From Roseobacter insulae (GTDB lineage: Bacteria; Pseudomonadota; Alphaproteobacteria; Rhodobacterales; Rhodobacteraceae), in the NCBI RefSeq assembly GCF_019375555.1, contig NZ_JAHXDN010000002.1, forward strand, positions 310,001 to 374,000: a DNA stretch of 64,000 bases. Reading direction: 5' to 3'. The translations under genes were made by a program, and so were the position numbers. Below are positions 48,874 through 64,000 of the stretch, one piece after another (within the stretch, counting starts at the first letter, position 1; each line of letters opens with the position of its first letter). The notes beneath the pieces are model-generated. The model did not search any database, had not been told where the DNA came from, and saw only the letters and a program-made list of their open reading frames with translations.

Positions 48874-49491
48874 TCAGCGCGGCGTGGTGACGAGCGGTTC
48901 ACGCTGGCCTTTTCGCAGAACCGCCGGATCGTAAGGGGTGCGGTCGAAGACCTCTTCGACCATCGGGGCAAAGTGGTCCAGCGGCAGCGTGTCATAGCCG
49001 GGATCGAAACTCGCCTGATCCCAGCGTTCACAAAATGCCGCGCAATCGTCGAAATAGGGGTGGCCTGTGTATTTGTCGCGTTTGTGGGGGTCGGCACCGA
49101 CGTGATGCCCGTAGTAGACCATCTGGAAATCGCCGTGTTTTTCAACGACCCATGTGCATTGTTCGCGCACGAAGGGGCGCAGGATGGTCGCGGCGTATTC
49201 ATCGTGGTTGTAGGGCGCGTAGATATCCCCGATGTCATGCAGCAGCGCCGATGCCACCCAGTCGGTATCGGCCCCGTCGCGCCAGGCCCGCGTGGCCGAT
49301 TGCAGCGAATGGCCGAGCCGGGTGACCTGATAGCCCGACAGGCTTTCATCCAGCGCCACCAGCGCCTTGAGCAGACGTGCGGCGGTGCCGCGCGTGTAGG
49401 CCACTTCGTGCTCGGTCAGAAAGGCGTAATCCTCGGCGGAGCCGTCCTTCATCTGGGTAAAGCCCACGTGTTTCATGTTTTTCGAGGTCAT
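48874..49491 (-). CDS. PhnZ-like HD-domain oxygenase
   Basis: 205-residue HD-domain protein. The metal-ligand pattern resembles the mixed-valence di-iron oxygenases PhnZ and TmpB rather than hydrolytic HD enzymes: GHSLQSATRAW (His61), LLHDIGD (His85-Asp86), YNHDEYA (His96), further His at KHGDFQMVYYGHH, and RWDQASFDPGYDTLPLDHF, where members of this group have a conserved WD..a..P Asp ligand. PhnZ cleaves 2-amino-1-hydroxyethylphosphonate to glycine and phosphate. Its ATG at 49491 overlaps the stop of the PhyH-family dioxygenase gene by four bases, as expected for a coupled two-enzyme pathway like phnY-phnZ. The actual substrate is unknown; no phosphonate transporter is adjacent. Confidence 0.78.
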   Translation of the reverse strand: MTSKNMKHVGFTQMKDGSAEDYAFLTEHEVAYTRGTAARLLKALVALDESLSGYQVTRLGHSLQSATRAWRDGADTDWVASALLHDIGDIYAPYNHDEYAATILRPFVREQCTWVVEKHGDFQMVYYGHHVGADPHKRDKYTGHPYFDDCAAFCERWDQASFDPGYDTLPLDHFAPMVEEVFDRTPYDPAVLRKGQREPLVTTPR

Positions 49492-50366
49492 CCGTAAAGC
49501 CCCCTGGCGCTGTCGGTTCCGGCCATCATCACCTTGGCCTGAGCCTGCCGGATTTCGTCGTAGATGGCCAGCGCTTCGGGCGCAAAGAGCGCGCTCGGCG
49601 GGTCGAACTGCCGGAAATGGCCGTGCCTGTCCGTGCCCCGGGCCAGCAGCGCGTAATCGGTGTCGCCGACATTCTGTGTCACCGCCGGCGTGCAGTAGCG
49701 GATCACGGCGGCGATGCGGCGGTCATCCGTCGTATTGGGGCCGGAGCCGTGGATCGTCAGGCCGTGGTGCAGCGATATCTGACCGGGATGGATTTCGATG
49801 GGGGTTTTCTGGTCGTCGGTGACATCCACCCTGACCTCCTGCCCGCGGCTGAGCAGGTTGTCCTCCGCGAAGGTGTCCCTGTGCGGCAGGATCGGGTTCT
49901 TGTGGGAGCCTTTCACGAAATCCATGCAGCCCGAGGCGGGGGTTGCGGGCGACAGGGACAGCCATGCGGTGACCAGCCCGTCGATCGCGCCCAGACCCCA
50001 GTAGGTCAGGTCCTGATGCATGGAGACCCTGTGGCGGGTCTGCGGCTCCTTGATGAAGAATTCCACTGCGTAGATCATGATATCCGGCCCGAGAATCCCT
50101 TCAACCACGTCGAGAATGCGCGGGTCCGACCCGATGCGGTAGGCCAGCGGCATCACGCAATGCGCGTTGACGCGTTTGTAGGTATTGAGCGGCAGCGGCA
50201 GCCCGGCGTCGCGCCAGGTGCTTTCGATGTCCTCAAGCTCGGCGCGCAGGGTGCGTGCTTCCGTGGCGGGCAGGACCGGGATCGGGAAGAGATAGCCATC
50301 GTCCCAATAGGATGTCTTTTGCGCGTCGCTGAGACGGCCATTCACGAGGGTCAGGGGGGGTGGCAT
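49488..50366 (-). CDS. PhyH-family Fe(II)/2-oxoglutarate dioxygenase
   Basis: 292-residue dioxygenase from the ATG at 50366, which has GGAGG five bases upstream; the long open frame beyond it is shadow. The facial triad is His117-x-Asp119 (VSMHQDLTYWG) and a distal His206 (LTIHGSGPN), with Arg216/217 (TTDDRRIAAV) placed to bind 2-oxoglutarate. PhyH-family enzymes include phytanoyl-CoA hydroxylase and PhnY, which hydroxylates 2-aminoethylphosphonate. The overlap with the downstream PhnZ-like gene suggests hydroxylation by this enzyme followed by oxidative C-X cleavage. Substrate unproven. Confidence 0.82.
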   Translation of the reverse strand: MPPPLTLVNGRLSDAQKTSYWDDGYLFPIPVLPATEARTLRAELEDIESTWRDAGLPLPLNTYKRVNAHCVMPLAYRIGSDPRILDVVEGILGPDIMIYAVEFFIKEPQTRHRVSMHQDLTYWGLGAIDGLVTAWLSLSPATPASGCMDFVKGSHKNPILPHRDTFAEDNLLSRGQEVRVDVTDDQKTPIEIHPGQISLHHGLTIHGSGPNTTDDRRIAAVIRYCTPAVTQNVGDTDYALLARGTDRHGHFRQFDPPSALFAPEALAIYDEIRQAQAKVMMAGTDSARGLYG

Positions 50367-50732: not shown

Positions 50733-53030
50733 ATGGAAAAGTTTGGCAAATCACAATCAATCACACGTGTGGAAGACCTGCGTTTCCTGACCGGACATGG
50801 CCGCTATGTCGATGATATCGCCCCGGAGAACGCGCTGCGGGCCTTCGTCTTCCGGGCGCCGGTTGCGCATGCCACGATCACGGGTCTGAACGTCGATGCG
50901 GCACGGGATGCCGATGGCGTTCACGCGGTGCTGACGGTCGCCGATCTCGAAGCGGCGGGCATGGACATCAATATGTTCGGGGCGACGGTGAAAAATCGCG
51001 ATGGTTCCGCCGGTGCCGCCCCCAAGCGCCCGTTGCTGGCGAAAGACAAGATGCGGTTTGTCGGCGAGCCGGTTGCGTTTATCGTGGCCGACACGCTCGA
51101 CCAGGCCCGCGATGCGGCGGAAATGATCGAACTGGACTACGAGGATCTGCCGGCCAAGATGGATCTGGCCACCGGCGGCACAGCGGTGCATGACGAGGCG
51201 CCGGACAACCGGGCGTTCGACTGGGGCCTTGGTGATGAAGCGGCCACCGACGCGGCCTTCAGGGCGGCGGCCAGAACGGTCAGCCTGGAGGTTGGCGACA
51301 ACCGGATCATCGTGAACTCGCTGGAACCGCGCGGCTGCTTTGCCGAGTGGGAGGGCGACAGGGTGCATGTCTCTCTGGGCGGCCAGGGTGTCTGGGGGCA
51401 GAAGGAATTCATCGCCAGGGCGCTGGCGCTGCCCGAAGAGCGGGTCCGGGTGACCACGCCGGATGTTGGCGGCGGGTTCGGGATGAAGGGGTTTCCCTAT
51501 CCCGAATATGCGCTTGCCGCGCAGGCCGCGCGCGCCGTGGGCAGGCCGGTGCGGTGGATGTCGGAGCGCACCGAGGCGATGCTGTCGGACAACGCGGGCC
51601 GCGATCTGACCTCGACCGCCGAGTTTGCCTTTGACGAAAACCACAGGATTACCGGCTACCGCGTGCACACACGCTGCAACATGGGCGCTTACAACAGCCA
51701 TTTCGCGCAGTACATTCAGAGCCAGTTGTTCAGCCGGGTGCTGTCGGGCGTTTACGATGTGCCGAACACGTGGCTGCGGGTCGAGGGGTTCTATACCAAC
51801 ACCACCTATGTCGATGCCTACCGGGGTGCGGGACGACCCGAGGCGATTTACGTGCTGGAACGCCTGATGGACCGTGCGGCGCGCGAGCTGGGGGTGGACC
51901 CGATCGCGTTGCGGCGGCGCAATTTCATCAAGCCCGACCAGTTCCCCTATGCCACCACCGTGGGCGAAACCTACGATGTCGGCGACTTTGACAAGGTGAT
52001 GGACCGCGGCGTCGCGGAGGCCGATCTGTCCGGGTTTGATGCGCGCAAAAAAGCCGATGCGGCGCGGGGACTGCTCAGGGGCGTCGGTTTGTGTTACTAT
52101 ATTGAAAGTATTTTGGGTGATCCTTCGGAAGGCGCGAAGGTGACATTTAATGAGGATGGTACGGTGACGATTTACGTGGGCACGCAATCCACAGGGCAGG
52201 GACATGAGACGGTTTATGCGTCTTTCCTGGCCGATCAGACCGGAATCCCGGCAGAAATGATCACCGTGGTGCAGGGCGACAGCGACCTGATCGCCACGGG
52301 CGGCGGTACCGGCGGGTCCCGCTCCGTCACCGTGCAGAACAACGCGACACTGGCGGCGGTTGCCGAGATGACGGAGAAATTCACCGCCTTCCTGTCGGAT
52401 GAAATGGGCGTGCCTGCGTCCGAGATCAGCTTTGACGATGAACGGTTTCGCGCCGATGGGTCGAACCTGACGCCGACGATGCTGGAGGTTGCGGAGATGG
52501 CCCGCGCGGCCGGTCGTGACGATCTGCTGACGCATGAGGCCCGCGCCACGCTGCCTGCCCGAAGCTTTCCCAACGGTTGCCATGTTTCAGAGGTAGTGGT
52601 GGACCCGGAGACCGGGAGAGTAACCGTGGACCGCTATACTGTTGTTGATGATTTTGGCAATCTTATCAACCCCATGCTGGCCGAAGGTCAGGTGCATGGC
52701 GGGGTGGTTCAGGGCATCGGGCAAGCGATTACCGAGCATGTTGTCTTTGATGAAGACGGCCAGTTGCTCACGGCATCGTTCATGGACTACGCCTTGCCGC
52801 GTGCCGACGACGTGCCCACTATTAGTTTTACATCGGAACCGGTGCCATCCACGGCCAACATCATGGGAATGAAGGGATGTGGCGAAGCGGGCACCGTTGG
52901 CGCGCTGGCCGCTGTTGCCAACGCGGTACAGGATGCGCTTTGGGAGCGGGGCGTGCGGCAGGCCGACATGCCGTTTACCCCGCATAGAGTTTGGGAGCTG
53001 TTGCACAGTGAGGTCCTCGCGGCGGAATAA
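50733..53030 (+). CDS. Form II CoxL-like molybdenum hydroxylase large subunit (orphan)
   Basis: 765-residue molybdopterin-binding subunit of the xanthine oxidase family, starting MEKFGKSQSITRVEDLRFLT with AAAAGGAGCC upstream. The substrate-site loop is DAYRGAGRPEAIYVLERLMD; true (form I) CO dehydrogenases have AYRCSFR with the Cu-binding Cys, so this is a form II enzyme, which may oxidise other compounds and whose substrate is not known. The moco-binding GTQSTGQGHETV, GGTGGSRSV and MKGCGEAGTVG (catalytic Glu) are intact. The medium (FAD) and small (2Fe-2S) subunits that normally lie next to it are absent. Two stretches (about 52090-52180, 52595-52880) use AT-richer codons than the rest. Confidence 0.85.
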   Translation: MEKFGKSQSITRVEDLRFLTGHGRYVDDIAPENALRAFVFRAPVAHATITGLNVDAARDADGVHAVLTVADLEAAGMDINMFGATVKNRDGSAGAAPKRPLLAKDKMRFVGEPVAFIVADTLDQARDAAEMIELDYEDLPAKMDLATGGTAVHDEAPDNRAFDWGLGDEAATDAAFRAAARTVSLEVGDNRIIVNSLEPRGCFAEWEGDRVHVSLGGQGVWGQKEFIARALALPEERVRVTTPDVGGGFGMKGFPYPEYALAAQAARAVGRPVRWMSERTEAMLSDNAGRDLTSTAEFAFDENHRITGYRVHTRCNMGAYNSHFAQYIQSQLFSRVLSGVYDVPNTWLRVEGFYTNTTYVDAYRGAGRPEAIYVLERLMDRAARELGVDPIALRRRNFIKPDQFPYATTVGETYDVGDFDKVMDRGVAEADLSGFDARKKADAARGLLRGVGLCYYIESILGDPSEGAKVTFNEDGTVTIYVGTQSTGQGHETVYASFLADQTGIPAEMITVVQGDSDLIATGGGTGGSRSVTVQNNATLAAVAEMTEKFTAFLSDEMGVPASEISFDDERFRADGSNLTPTMLEVAEMARAAGRDDLLTHEARATLPARSFPNGCHVSEVVVDPETGRVTVDRYTVVDDFGNLINPMLAEGQVHGGVVQGIGQAITEHVVFDEDGQLLTASFMDYALPRADDVPTISFTSEPVPSTANIMGMKGCGEAGTVGALAAVANAVQDALWERGVRQADMPFTPHRVWELLHSEVLAAE

Positions 53031-63351: not shown

Positions 63352-64000
63352 ATGAAACGATATTCCGTCTTTGCCGTGGCGCGGGAAGCTGCGCGGTACC
63401 ACACGGGCTGGGAACGGGCGTGGCGCAAGGCCGAGCCGAAGGCCAAATACGAAGTGATCATCATCGGGGCAGGCGGGCATGGTCTGGCCACGGCCTATTA
63501 TCTTGGCAAGCGCTTTGGCATCAAGAACGTGGCGATCCTTGAAAAAGGCTGGCTGGGCGGTGGCAACACCGGGCGCAACACCACGATTATCCGCAGCAAT
63601 TACCTGCAGGACCCGTCTGCGGCGCTTTATGAAAAGGCACGGTCGCTCTACGAAACCATGAGTCAGGACCTGAACTACAACGTGATGTTCAGCCCGCGCG
63701 GCGTGATCATGCTGGCCCAGACCCATCACGAGGTGCGGGGGTACCAGCGCACCGCCCATGCCAATGCGTTGCAGGGCGTCAAAACCGAGTTCATCAATCC
63801 GACCCGCGTGAAGGAGCTGGTGCCGATCATCAACATCGACGGGCCGCGCTACCCGGTGCTGGGCGGTCTCTGGCAGGCGCGCGGCGGCACGGCGCGGCAC
63901 GATGCGGTGGCCTGGGGCTATGCGCGGGCCTGCTCGGACATGGGCATGGATGTGATCCAGCAATGCGAGGTCACGGGCATTCGTCGCGAGGACGGCCGCG
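63352..64000 (+). CDS. soxB: Sarcosine oxidase subunit beta (3' truncated by window)
   Basis: FAD-containing subunit of heterotetrameric sarcosine oxidase, which oxidatively demethylates sarcosine with transfer of the methylene group to THF. The first 216 residues are seen: MKRYSVFAVAREAARYHTGW, the FAD dinucleotide fold EVIIIGAGGHGLATAYYLGK, then LEKGWLGGGNTGRNTTIIRS and GGLWQARGGTARHDAVAWGY, as in the beta subunit. The gene continues beyond the window; soxD, A and G should follow. Its start has GGGGTGG upstream. Confidence 0.93.
   Translation, partial: MKRYSVFAVAREAARYHTGWERAWRKAEPKAKYEVIIIGAGGHGLATAYYLGKRFGIKNVAILEKGWLGGGNTGRNTTIIRSNYLQDPSAALYEKARSLYETMSQDLNYNVMFSPRGVIMLAQTHHEVRGYQRTAHANALQGVKTEFINPTRVKELVPIINIDGPRYPVLGGLWQARGGTARHDAVAWGYARACSDMGMDVIQQCEVTGIRREDGR

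Follow-up and report, generated by a model that had tools for sequence, protein, structure and literature searches.

HD-domain oxygenases are given only for inositol and phosphonates in the excerpts of PMC8177086 (2020) and PMC10574752 (2023) consulted here. As an earlier note on this DNA had pointed out, the gene pair described below resembles PhnY/PhnZ, for 2-aminoethylphosphonate, and TmpA/TmpB of the 2-trimethylaminoethylphosphonate pathway of Leisingera; the predicted fold and ligand positions of its HD protein are the same, and the closest solved folds among the matches listed are PhnZ and TmpB. In TmpA/TmpB, a 2-oxoglutarate dioxygenase also precedes an HD oxygenase, TmpA-like dioxygenases lie directly upstream of some relatives of our HD gene, and a quaternary-amine setting is common to both. 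The TmpB substrate, Me3N-CH2-CH(OH)-PO3, corresponds to carnitine with PO3 in place of CH2COO (excerpt of PMC10574752, and chemistry). Compared with TmpA/TmpB, however, our dioxygenase is of the PhyH and not the TauD/gBBH type, and our HD protein belongs to another clade than TmpB, scores far below its cut-off and lacks the YxxE, HxxxK and Ser-rich segments. The same clade difference and missing segments separate it from PhnZ, in which HDxGH stands in place of HDxGD. MIOX differs in having HDxGK, and our protein reaches 22.9 bits on PF05153 (MIOX), under the gathering cut-off of 25; inositol genes near HD were not noticed by eye. The non-heme monooxygenase ThoJ (6zyk/6zyl), which belongs to a peptide natural-product pathway, is 30% identical. 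Finally, in carnitine catabolism (carnitine 3-dehydrogenase and BKACE), the excerpt of PMC12482172 names neither an HD nor an oxygenase step, and some orthologues of our HD protein lie inside that operon.

The locus and its two proteins

The window, the whole stretch of 64,000 nucleotides that was analysed, comes from a genome of 4.88 Mb. Its minus strand carries a PhyH-family Fe(II)/2-oxoglutarate dioxygenase gene (49488..50366, 292 aa, ATG at 50366 with GGAGG 5 nt ahead), the proposed feeder hydroxylase, followed by an HD-domain gene (48874..49491, 205 aa) for a protein of PhnZ/TmpB/MIOX-like fold, the proposed cleaving di-iron oxygenase. The two genes share a 4-nt ATGA overlap (49488..49491, minus strand), in which the PhyH stop and HD start have positions in common, just as the earlier note had read it. 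The gene valS lies downstream of the HD gene, and a Mo-hydroxylase large subunit gene (50733-53030, plus strand; PF02738/PF20256) is divergent from and upstream of PhyH. Its AYRGAGR motif is one that we take to mark form II, and no medium or small subunit genes were seen beside it by eye. Of the 80 named loci (the best of 473; Roseobacter, Yoonia and Roseovarius are among them), 33 have a Mo-hydroxylase gene within 9 kb of HD, and it is also present in loci without PhyH. It was rejected as a pathway partner and assigned to conserved synteny, being retained in two loci (L271 and L277) where HD is absent, and no tie between it and the proposed pathway was found in the loci compared. A sarcosine oxidase beta-subunit gene (63352-64000, plus strand; TIGR01373, 330 bits over the part inside the window) starts some 13 kb away from PhyH and HD and runs past the window edge.

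The PhyH protein matches PF05721 at 2.3e-27. Its iron motif H117-Q-D119 (50010..50018, minus strand) and distal iron ligand H206 (49749..49751, minus strand) were located by alignment, and H117, D119, H206, R216 and R217 show no variation across an alignment of 40 sequences, the window included; the dioxygenase motif HxD...H read in the earlier note was thereby confirmed. The marks of the PhyH dioxygenase class, namely PF05721, HxD...H and the distal Arg, are all present. As a general rule, HxD rather than HxA/G indicates a hydroxylase rather than a halogenase, and the HxD found here thus argues for the former and against the latter. On the model of the PhnY-type methylphosphonate hydroxylase (NF052437), the protein scored 19.6 bits, below the cut-off of 500.

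Domain models pick up the HD protein only weakly, with 22.7 bits on PF01966 (cut-off 22) and, as its best NCBIfam match, 38.9 bits on TIGR03276 (cut-off 214.6); database names for its relatives are 'HD domain-containing protein' or 'inositol oxygenase family protein'. By alignment, its ligand positions are H61 (49309..49311), H85 and D86 in HDIGD, together with D89 (49225..49239), H96 in NHDEY (49204..49206; compare GHDEY in MIOX), H119 in HGDFQ (49135..49137) and D158 in RWDQASFD (49018..49020), all on the minus strand. The H..HD..H..H..D ligand set of HD di-iron oxygenases is therefore complete in the alignment, including H119, which the earlier note had left out of its otherwise correct pattern, and the RWDxAS motif occurs as RWDQAS at residues 156-161. 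A missing iron ligand had been named as grounds for refutation, and no ligand position is missing as judged by alignment. We sorted HD relatives by identity into tiers of our own setting, group A (>65%), group B (about 49-65%) and group C (<49%). In the window's subgroup, group A, the six ligands, D89 and Q123 are kept in 134/134 rows, which represent 134 of 139 loci with the window included, the other five being short or with stops. H96, H119 and D158 align with the corresponding positions of TmpB, Phn-HD and MIOX, while D89 stands where PhnZ and MIOX have H/K, and Q123 is K in PhnZ/TmpB rows.

The six ligands alone do not tell oxygenases from two-metal HD hydrolases (excerpt of PMC8177086). 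Against solved structures, the predicted fold scored 17.4 with PhnZ, 16.4 with TmpB and 11.5 and 10.5 with MIOX, and the remaining structures among the matches listed scored 8.1 or less. A place among phosphohydrolases, the other refuting outcome in the earlier note, was not borne out, as the predicted fold groups with oxygenases; this check rests on the fold comparison because the tree had no hydrolases, all such rows having been left out since alignment with them was unreliable. In the tree, 51 rows of the window HD family form one clade (support 96/91), and 36 Phn-HD and TmpB rows form a separate clade (support 97/94). The tree covers 16 of the 20 Phn-HD loci, since 17 yielded a row and one of these, in antisense, was discarded, and two of three MIOX loci. 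Several of its branches are long, above all those of the MIOX rows. On modelled fold and aligned ligands, membership of the HD protein in the di-iron oxygenase class is well supported, and we infer that it would have oxygenase activity. As a minor observation, a protein between MIOX and the window HD family (L238/L283, genome G712), which has HDTGK and NHDEF and is over the PF05153 cut-off, joins MIOX in the tree via long branches.

Linkage of PhyH and HD and partners in other loci

The PhyH and HD genes are linked far beyond chance. Among 394 genomes of the same family, 127 carry the HD protein and 69 have PhyH at E <= 1e-30; a close PhyH was found in 56 (55 at E <= 1e-64 and one partial match, G375, added by hand), and HD is also present in 54 of these (Fisher p 2e-28), which upholds the pairing claimed in the earlier note. 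HD lies downstream on the same strand in 49 of the 56, and this HD is of group A in 31 and of group B in 18. Counted by matches, PhyH is upstream of HD on the same strand in 49/75 (75 of 76 were analysed, fragment G296:C50 being left out, as were the two HD fragments of G224:C27 and the second piece of G281), and the gap between match edges is 69 nt or less in 48/49 and 1570 in one. Pairs occur next to valS and away from it (e.g. L059, L066, L078, L086 and L099), and recur in group B with a PhyH identity of 42-51%. Many roseobacters among the named loci (best 80 of 473) have HD upstream of valS, whether PhyH is present or not.

The two distributions are nested, though with exceptions. HD is found without adjacent PhyH in 32/63 group-A genomes, and 7/56 close-PhyH genomes have no adjacent HD; in one of these (G139), the contig stops where the PhyH match does. 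PhyH stands alone in L271, L277 and L163, where no HD remnant was found. For example, L271 (G043:C25) has the synteny of the window (DUF2235-like, CoxL, PhyH, valS) with the HD gene missing, and a group-C HD and TmpB are still encoded in this genome. On the group-A tree, the PhyH label requires 27 changes compared with a shuffled mean of 40.9 (the lowest of 40 shuffles was 35), so the PhyH partner has been gained and lost often. Co-divergence of PhyH and HD beyond that of valS is weak (partial r 0.26, 9/2000 permutations as high, 21 loci).

Partners were recorded within 1 kb of HD (200 nt for PhyH) in 233 distinct HD loci pooled from several searches, which are not a random sample. Among the 139 group-A loci, the partner is PhyH in 54, BKACE-type and/or carnitine 3-dehydrogenase in 21, a PF04116 hydroxylase in 6 and none in 58. 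The 47 group-B loci have PhyH in 15, a TmpA/gamma-butyrobetaine-dioxygenase-like gene in 3 and none in 29, and the 47 group-C loci have the TmpA/gamma-butyrobetaine-dioxygenase-like gene in 1 and none of the four partner types in 46. The categories are exclusive, with no locus among the 233 in two. The labels BKACE, GbdR-like, lipocalin-like, PanB-like, class II aldolase and sterol-desaturase-like rest on family-level matches or on inspection by eye, not on equivalogs; BKACE-type proteins, for example, reach 230-245 bits on NF052387 (cut-off 382).

A TmpA/gBBH-like dioxygenase is directly upstream of HD in L156, L224/L251, L241 and L338/L362; against the TmpA model, those of L156 and L251 reach 347-358 bits (cut-off 400), and against the model of gamma-butyrobetaine dioxygenase 266-278 bits (cut-off 415). 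L156 is a Pseudomonas plasmid that encodes, after HD, a choline-binding protein passing its cut-off and a choline dehydrogenase that passes the subfamily cut-off but stays under that of the betA equivalog. In Rhizobium sp. NXC24 (L284; HD 74%), the neighbours are a Rieske protein and a reductase resembling glycine betaine monooxygenase reductase (304 of 500 bits), without a carnitine operon. In L262 and L263, a GbdR-like regulator (below cut-off) and genes for sarcosine oxidase lie no more than about 3 kb from HD. An FAD/GcvT enzyme of the dimethylglycine-dehydrogenase type lies nearby in L272, L081, L067 and seven group-C loci; as a pathway clue it is suggestive only, and the group-C loci share synteny.

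HD genes in carnitine operons

In 21 of the 139 group-A loci, from two families, HD lies beside carnitine-dehydrogenase and/or BKACE-type genes. One is the window's family (f1), roseobacter-like to judge from named relatives, and the other (f10) is a second family of the same class, taken for Rhizobiaceae, in which 30/151 genomes have HD. The typical order in f10 is GbdR-like regulator / BKACE-type - HD - carnitine 3-dehydrogenase - acyl-CoA dehydrogenase - CoA-ligase-type gene, some loci having additional genes in between. In 13 of the 14 group-A genomes of f10, a BKACE-type gene and/or the dehydrogenase is within 1 kb of HD; the exception, L350, is like L284 a group-A member outside carnitine operons. 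Within the window's own family, L371 has the order BKACE-type - HD (75%) - dehydrogenase - acyl-CoA dehydrogenase - ligase, and L372, L381 and L384 have HD with carnitine dehydrogenase. The carnitine 3-dehydrogenase is over the NCBIfam cut-off in L247 and L371, and the HD proteins of L245-L247 (f10) nest with the window HD (support 100/97).

The window pair itself lies outside such an operon, with no BKACE-type or carnitine dehydrogenase gene adjoining HD. Elsewhere in the same genome, locus L373 encodes a carnitine 3-dehydrogenase of full length (798 bits) together with BKACE-type and GbdR-like genes, and a small lipocalin-like ORF (named by eye) is in HD's place. Position 137 is A or S in 19/21 carnitine-operon rows and K in 110/113 other group-A rows. 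This switch may be a candidate for changed specificity or a lineage effect only, and the difference counts against identical function of the window and carnitine-operon HD proteins. Co-occurrence with the dehydrogenase was rejected as evidence; it is found (E <= 1e-60) in 37/37 HD-bearing genomes and is confounded by lineage, because the TmpB-bearing genomes show the same (18/18; both tallies made by hand).

Proposed module and rival explanations

On balance, we favour the reading that the pair is a two-step oxidative module acting on an N-methylated amine, and that the HD protein represents a non-phosphonate branch of the PhnZ/TmpB/MIOX kind of oxygenase. The logic of a dioxygenase followed by an HD oxygenase, already suggested in the earlier note, is supported by the gene pairing, ligand positions and predicted fold, and the suggested substrate other than the known ones agrees with the loss of phosphonate features and the presence of some orthologues in carnitine operons. 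First, PhyH would hydroxylate a methylene of a small N-methylated (quaternary ammonium) zwitterion. Second, the HD di-iron oxygenase would bind the resulting alcohol and split the neighbouring bond, probably C-C, with O2, giving a carboxylate such as glycine betaine. Other lineages would pair the same HD with a different hydroxylase, either TmpA/gamma-butyrobetaine-dioxygenase-like or PF04116, and in carnitine operons without an adjoining hydroxylase, the alcohol (carnitine) would already be supplied. The quaternary-amine substrate, the step order and the bond cut are what we infer; for the substrate this is because relatives, and not the window locus, lie among carnitine genes, and judged from these relatives it is the best supported of the substrate readings. 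C-N cleavage, which the earlier note had allowed for, is not favoured, as nothing speaks for it.

A more specific version can be put forward only tentatively, namely that HD cleaves a C-C bond of carnitine or of a hydroxylated analogue with O2, yielding glycine betaine and a two-carbon acid, with PhyH, gamma-butyrobetaine-dioxygenase-like and PF04116 enzymes as interchangeable feeders. Another way of making betaine from carnitine seems superfluous in carnitine operons, which already encode dehydrogenase, BKACE-type and thioesterase functions. If true, TmpA/TmpB would represent a more general betaine-forming reaction applied to phosphonates. The HD branch, present in 127/394 genomes of the window's family and in 40/299 genomes of a phylum sample, and with some members among carnitine genes, would extend HD oxygenases to another class of substrate and add an aerobic reaction to carnitine/betaine turnover in sea and soil. 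Among the open-access papers listed, we found none linking an HD-domain protein to carnitine or giving a PhyH-HD pair a non-phosphonate role.

It is rather unlikely that HD is instead a hydrolase of a carnitine/betaine pathway, acting for example on betainyl-CoA or phosphorylated choline. Two-metal HD hydrolases have the same ligand pattern, and the L247 carnitine 3-dehydrogenase covers only 1-339 of the 495-position model, the missing end being presumably the betainyl-CoA thioesterase part. The S. meliloti carnitine dehydrogenase is described as having a dual function (excerpt of PMC12482172). However, the dehydrogenase of L371 is full length (4-494 of 495) with HD present too, and 477-aa forms occur in L351 and L354, and HD as the thioesterase missing from L247 was lowered on these grounds. 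The predicted fold is also nearest to oxygenases, and a hydrolase would leave the coupling to three unrelated hydroxylase families unexplained.

The C-P cleavage put forward in the earlier note, in which PhyH would hydroxylate a phosphonate next to P and HD would cleave the C-P bond as in PhnY/PhnZ, is unlikely. The gene order is as in the known pairs, the nearest solved folds among the matches listed are PhnZ and TmpB, and TIGR03276 is the top NCBIfam match, but the HD protein missed all three phosphonate equivalog models (38.9/214.6, 33.3/300 and 24.9/300 bits). The HxxxK and LSxxSxxSLxxQGG segments, which bind the phosphonate group, are absent from it and present in the four Phn-HD/TmpB rows compared. 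The YxxE loop, tied to binding of the substrate amine in phosphonate HD oxygenases (excerpt of PMC8177086), is also absent, its positions being L51 and Y54. On cut-offs, residues and clade, membership in PhnZ/TmpB was rejected. True TmpB is over its cut-off in 25/198 same-family genomes, and 19 of the 25 also have a window-HD relative (10 group A, 6 group B and 4 group C, one genome holding both A and C); since HD shares genomes with TmpB and falls in a separate clade, it is a paralogue that serves a different function. In the window's own genome, the Phn-HD model found only the window protein (30.6 bits) and one 13-bit match. No phosphonate genes were recognised by eye in the HD neighbourhoods inspected, and several relatives lie in carnitine/choline/betaine neighbourhoods.

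We give a similarly low probability to a trimethyllysine route, in which the hydroxylase would make 3-hydroxytrimethyllysine and HD would cleave it to gamma-butyrobetaine entering the carnitine operon. The TmpA-like partners match trimethyllysine dioxygenase at 171-177 bits (cut-off 268), and the acyl-CoA-dehydrogenase- and CoA-ligase-type genes of the f10 operon could serve gamma-butyrobetaine, but HD proteins without a hydroxylase in carnitine operons would be left without substrate unless one is encoded elsewhere. Least probable is that the neighbours mislead and HD does an unrelated job, with PhyH upstream by synteny next to valS; HD keeps its place by valS with or without PhyH and many loci have no partner (58/139 in A, 29/47 in B, 46/47 in C), but pairs away from valS, their recurrence in group B and a position kept through 27 gains and losses of PhyH argue against it.

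Several further arrangements were observed around HD and PhyH relatives. A class II aldolase/adducin-like gene adjoins group-C HD in L158, L161, L250, L258 and L261 (by eye, uncounted), and perhaps belongs to a different pathway; an aldolase query across the 233 HD loci gave no assigned match. HD is directly 5' of a PF04116 fatty-acid-hydroxylase-like gene in L155, L081, L110, L377 and L380, and also in L013 and L389; a LysR-type gene precedes HD in L155, L081, L377 and L380, and a PanB-like gene follows the PF04116 gene in L110 and L155. In L272 (5617-12725), a PhyH (60% identical) lies away from HD with class II aldolase, SBD_N/NBD_C kinase-like and dehydrogenase-like genes, and this cluster also has the divergent FAD/GcvT enzyme.
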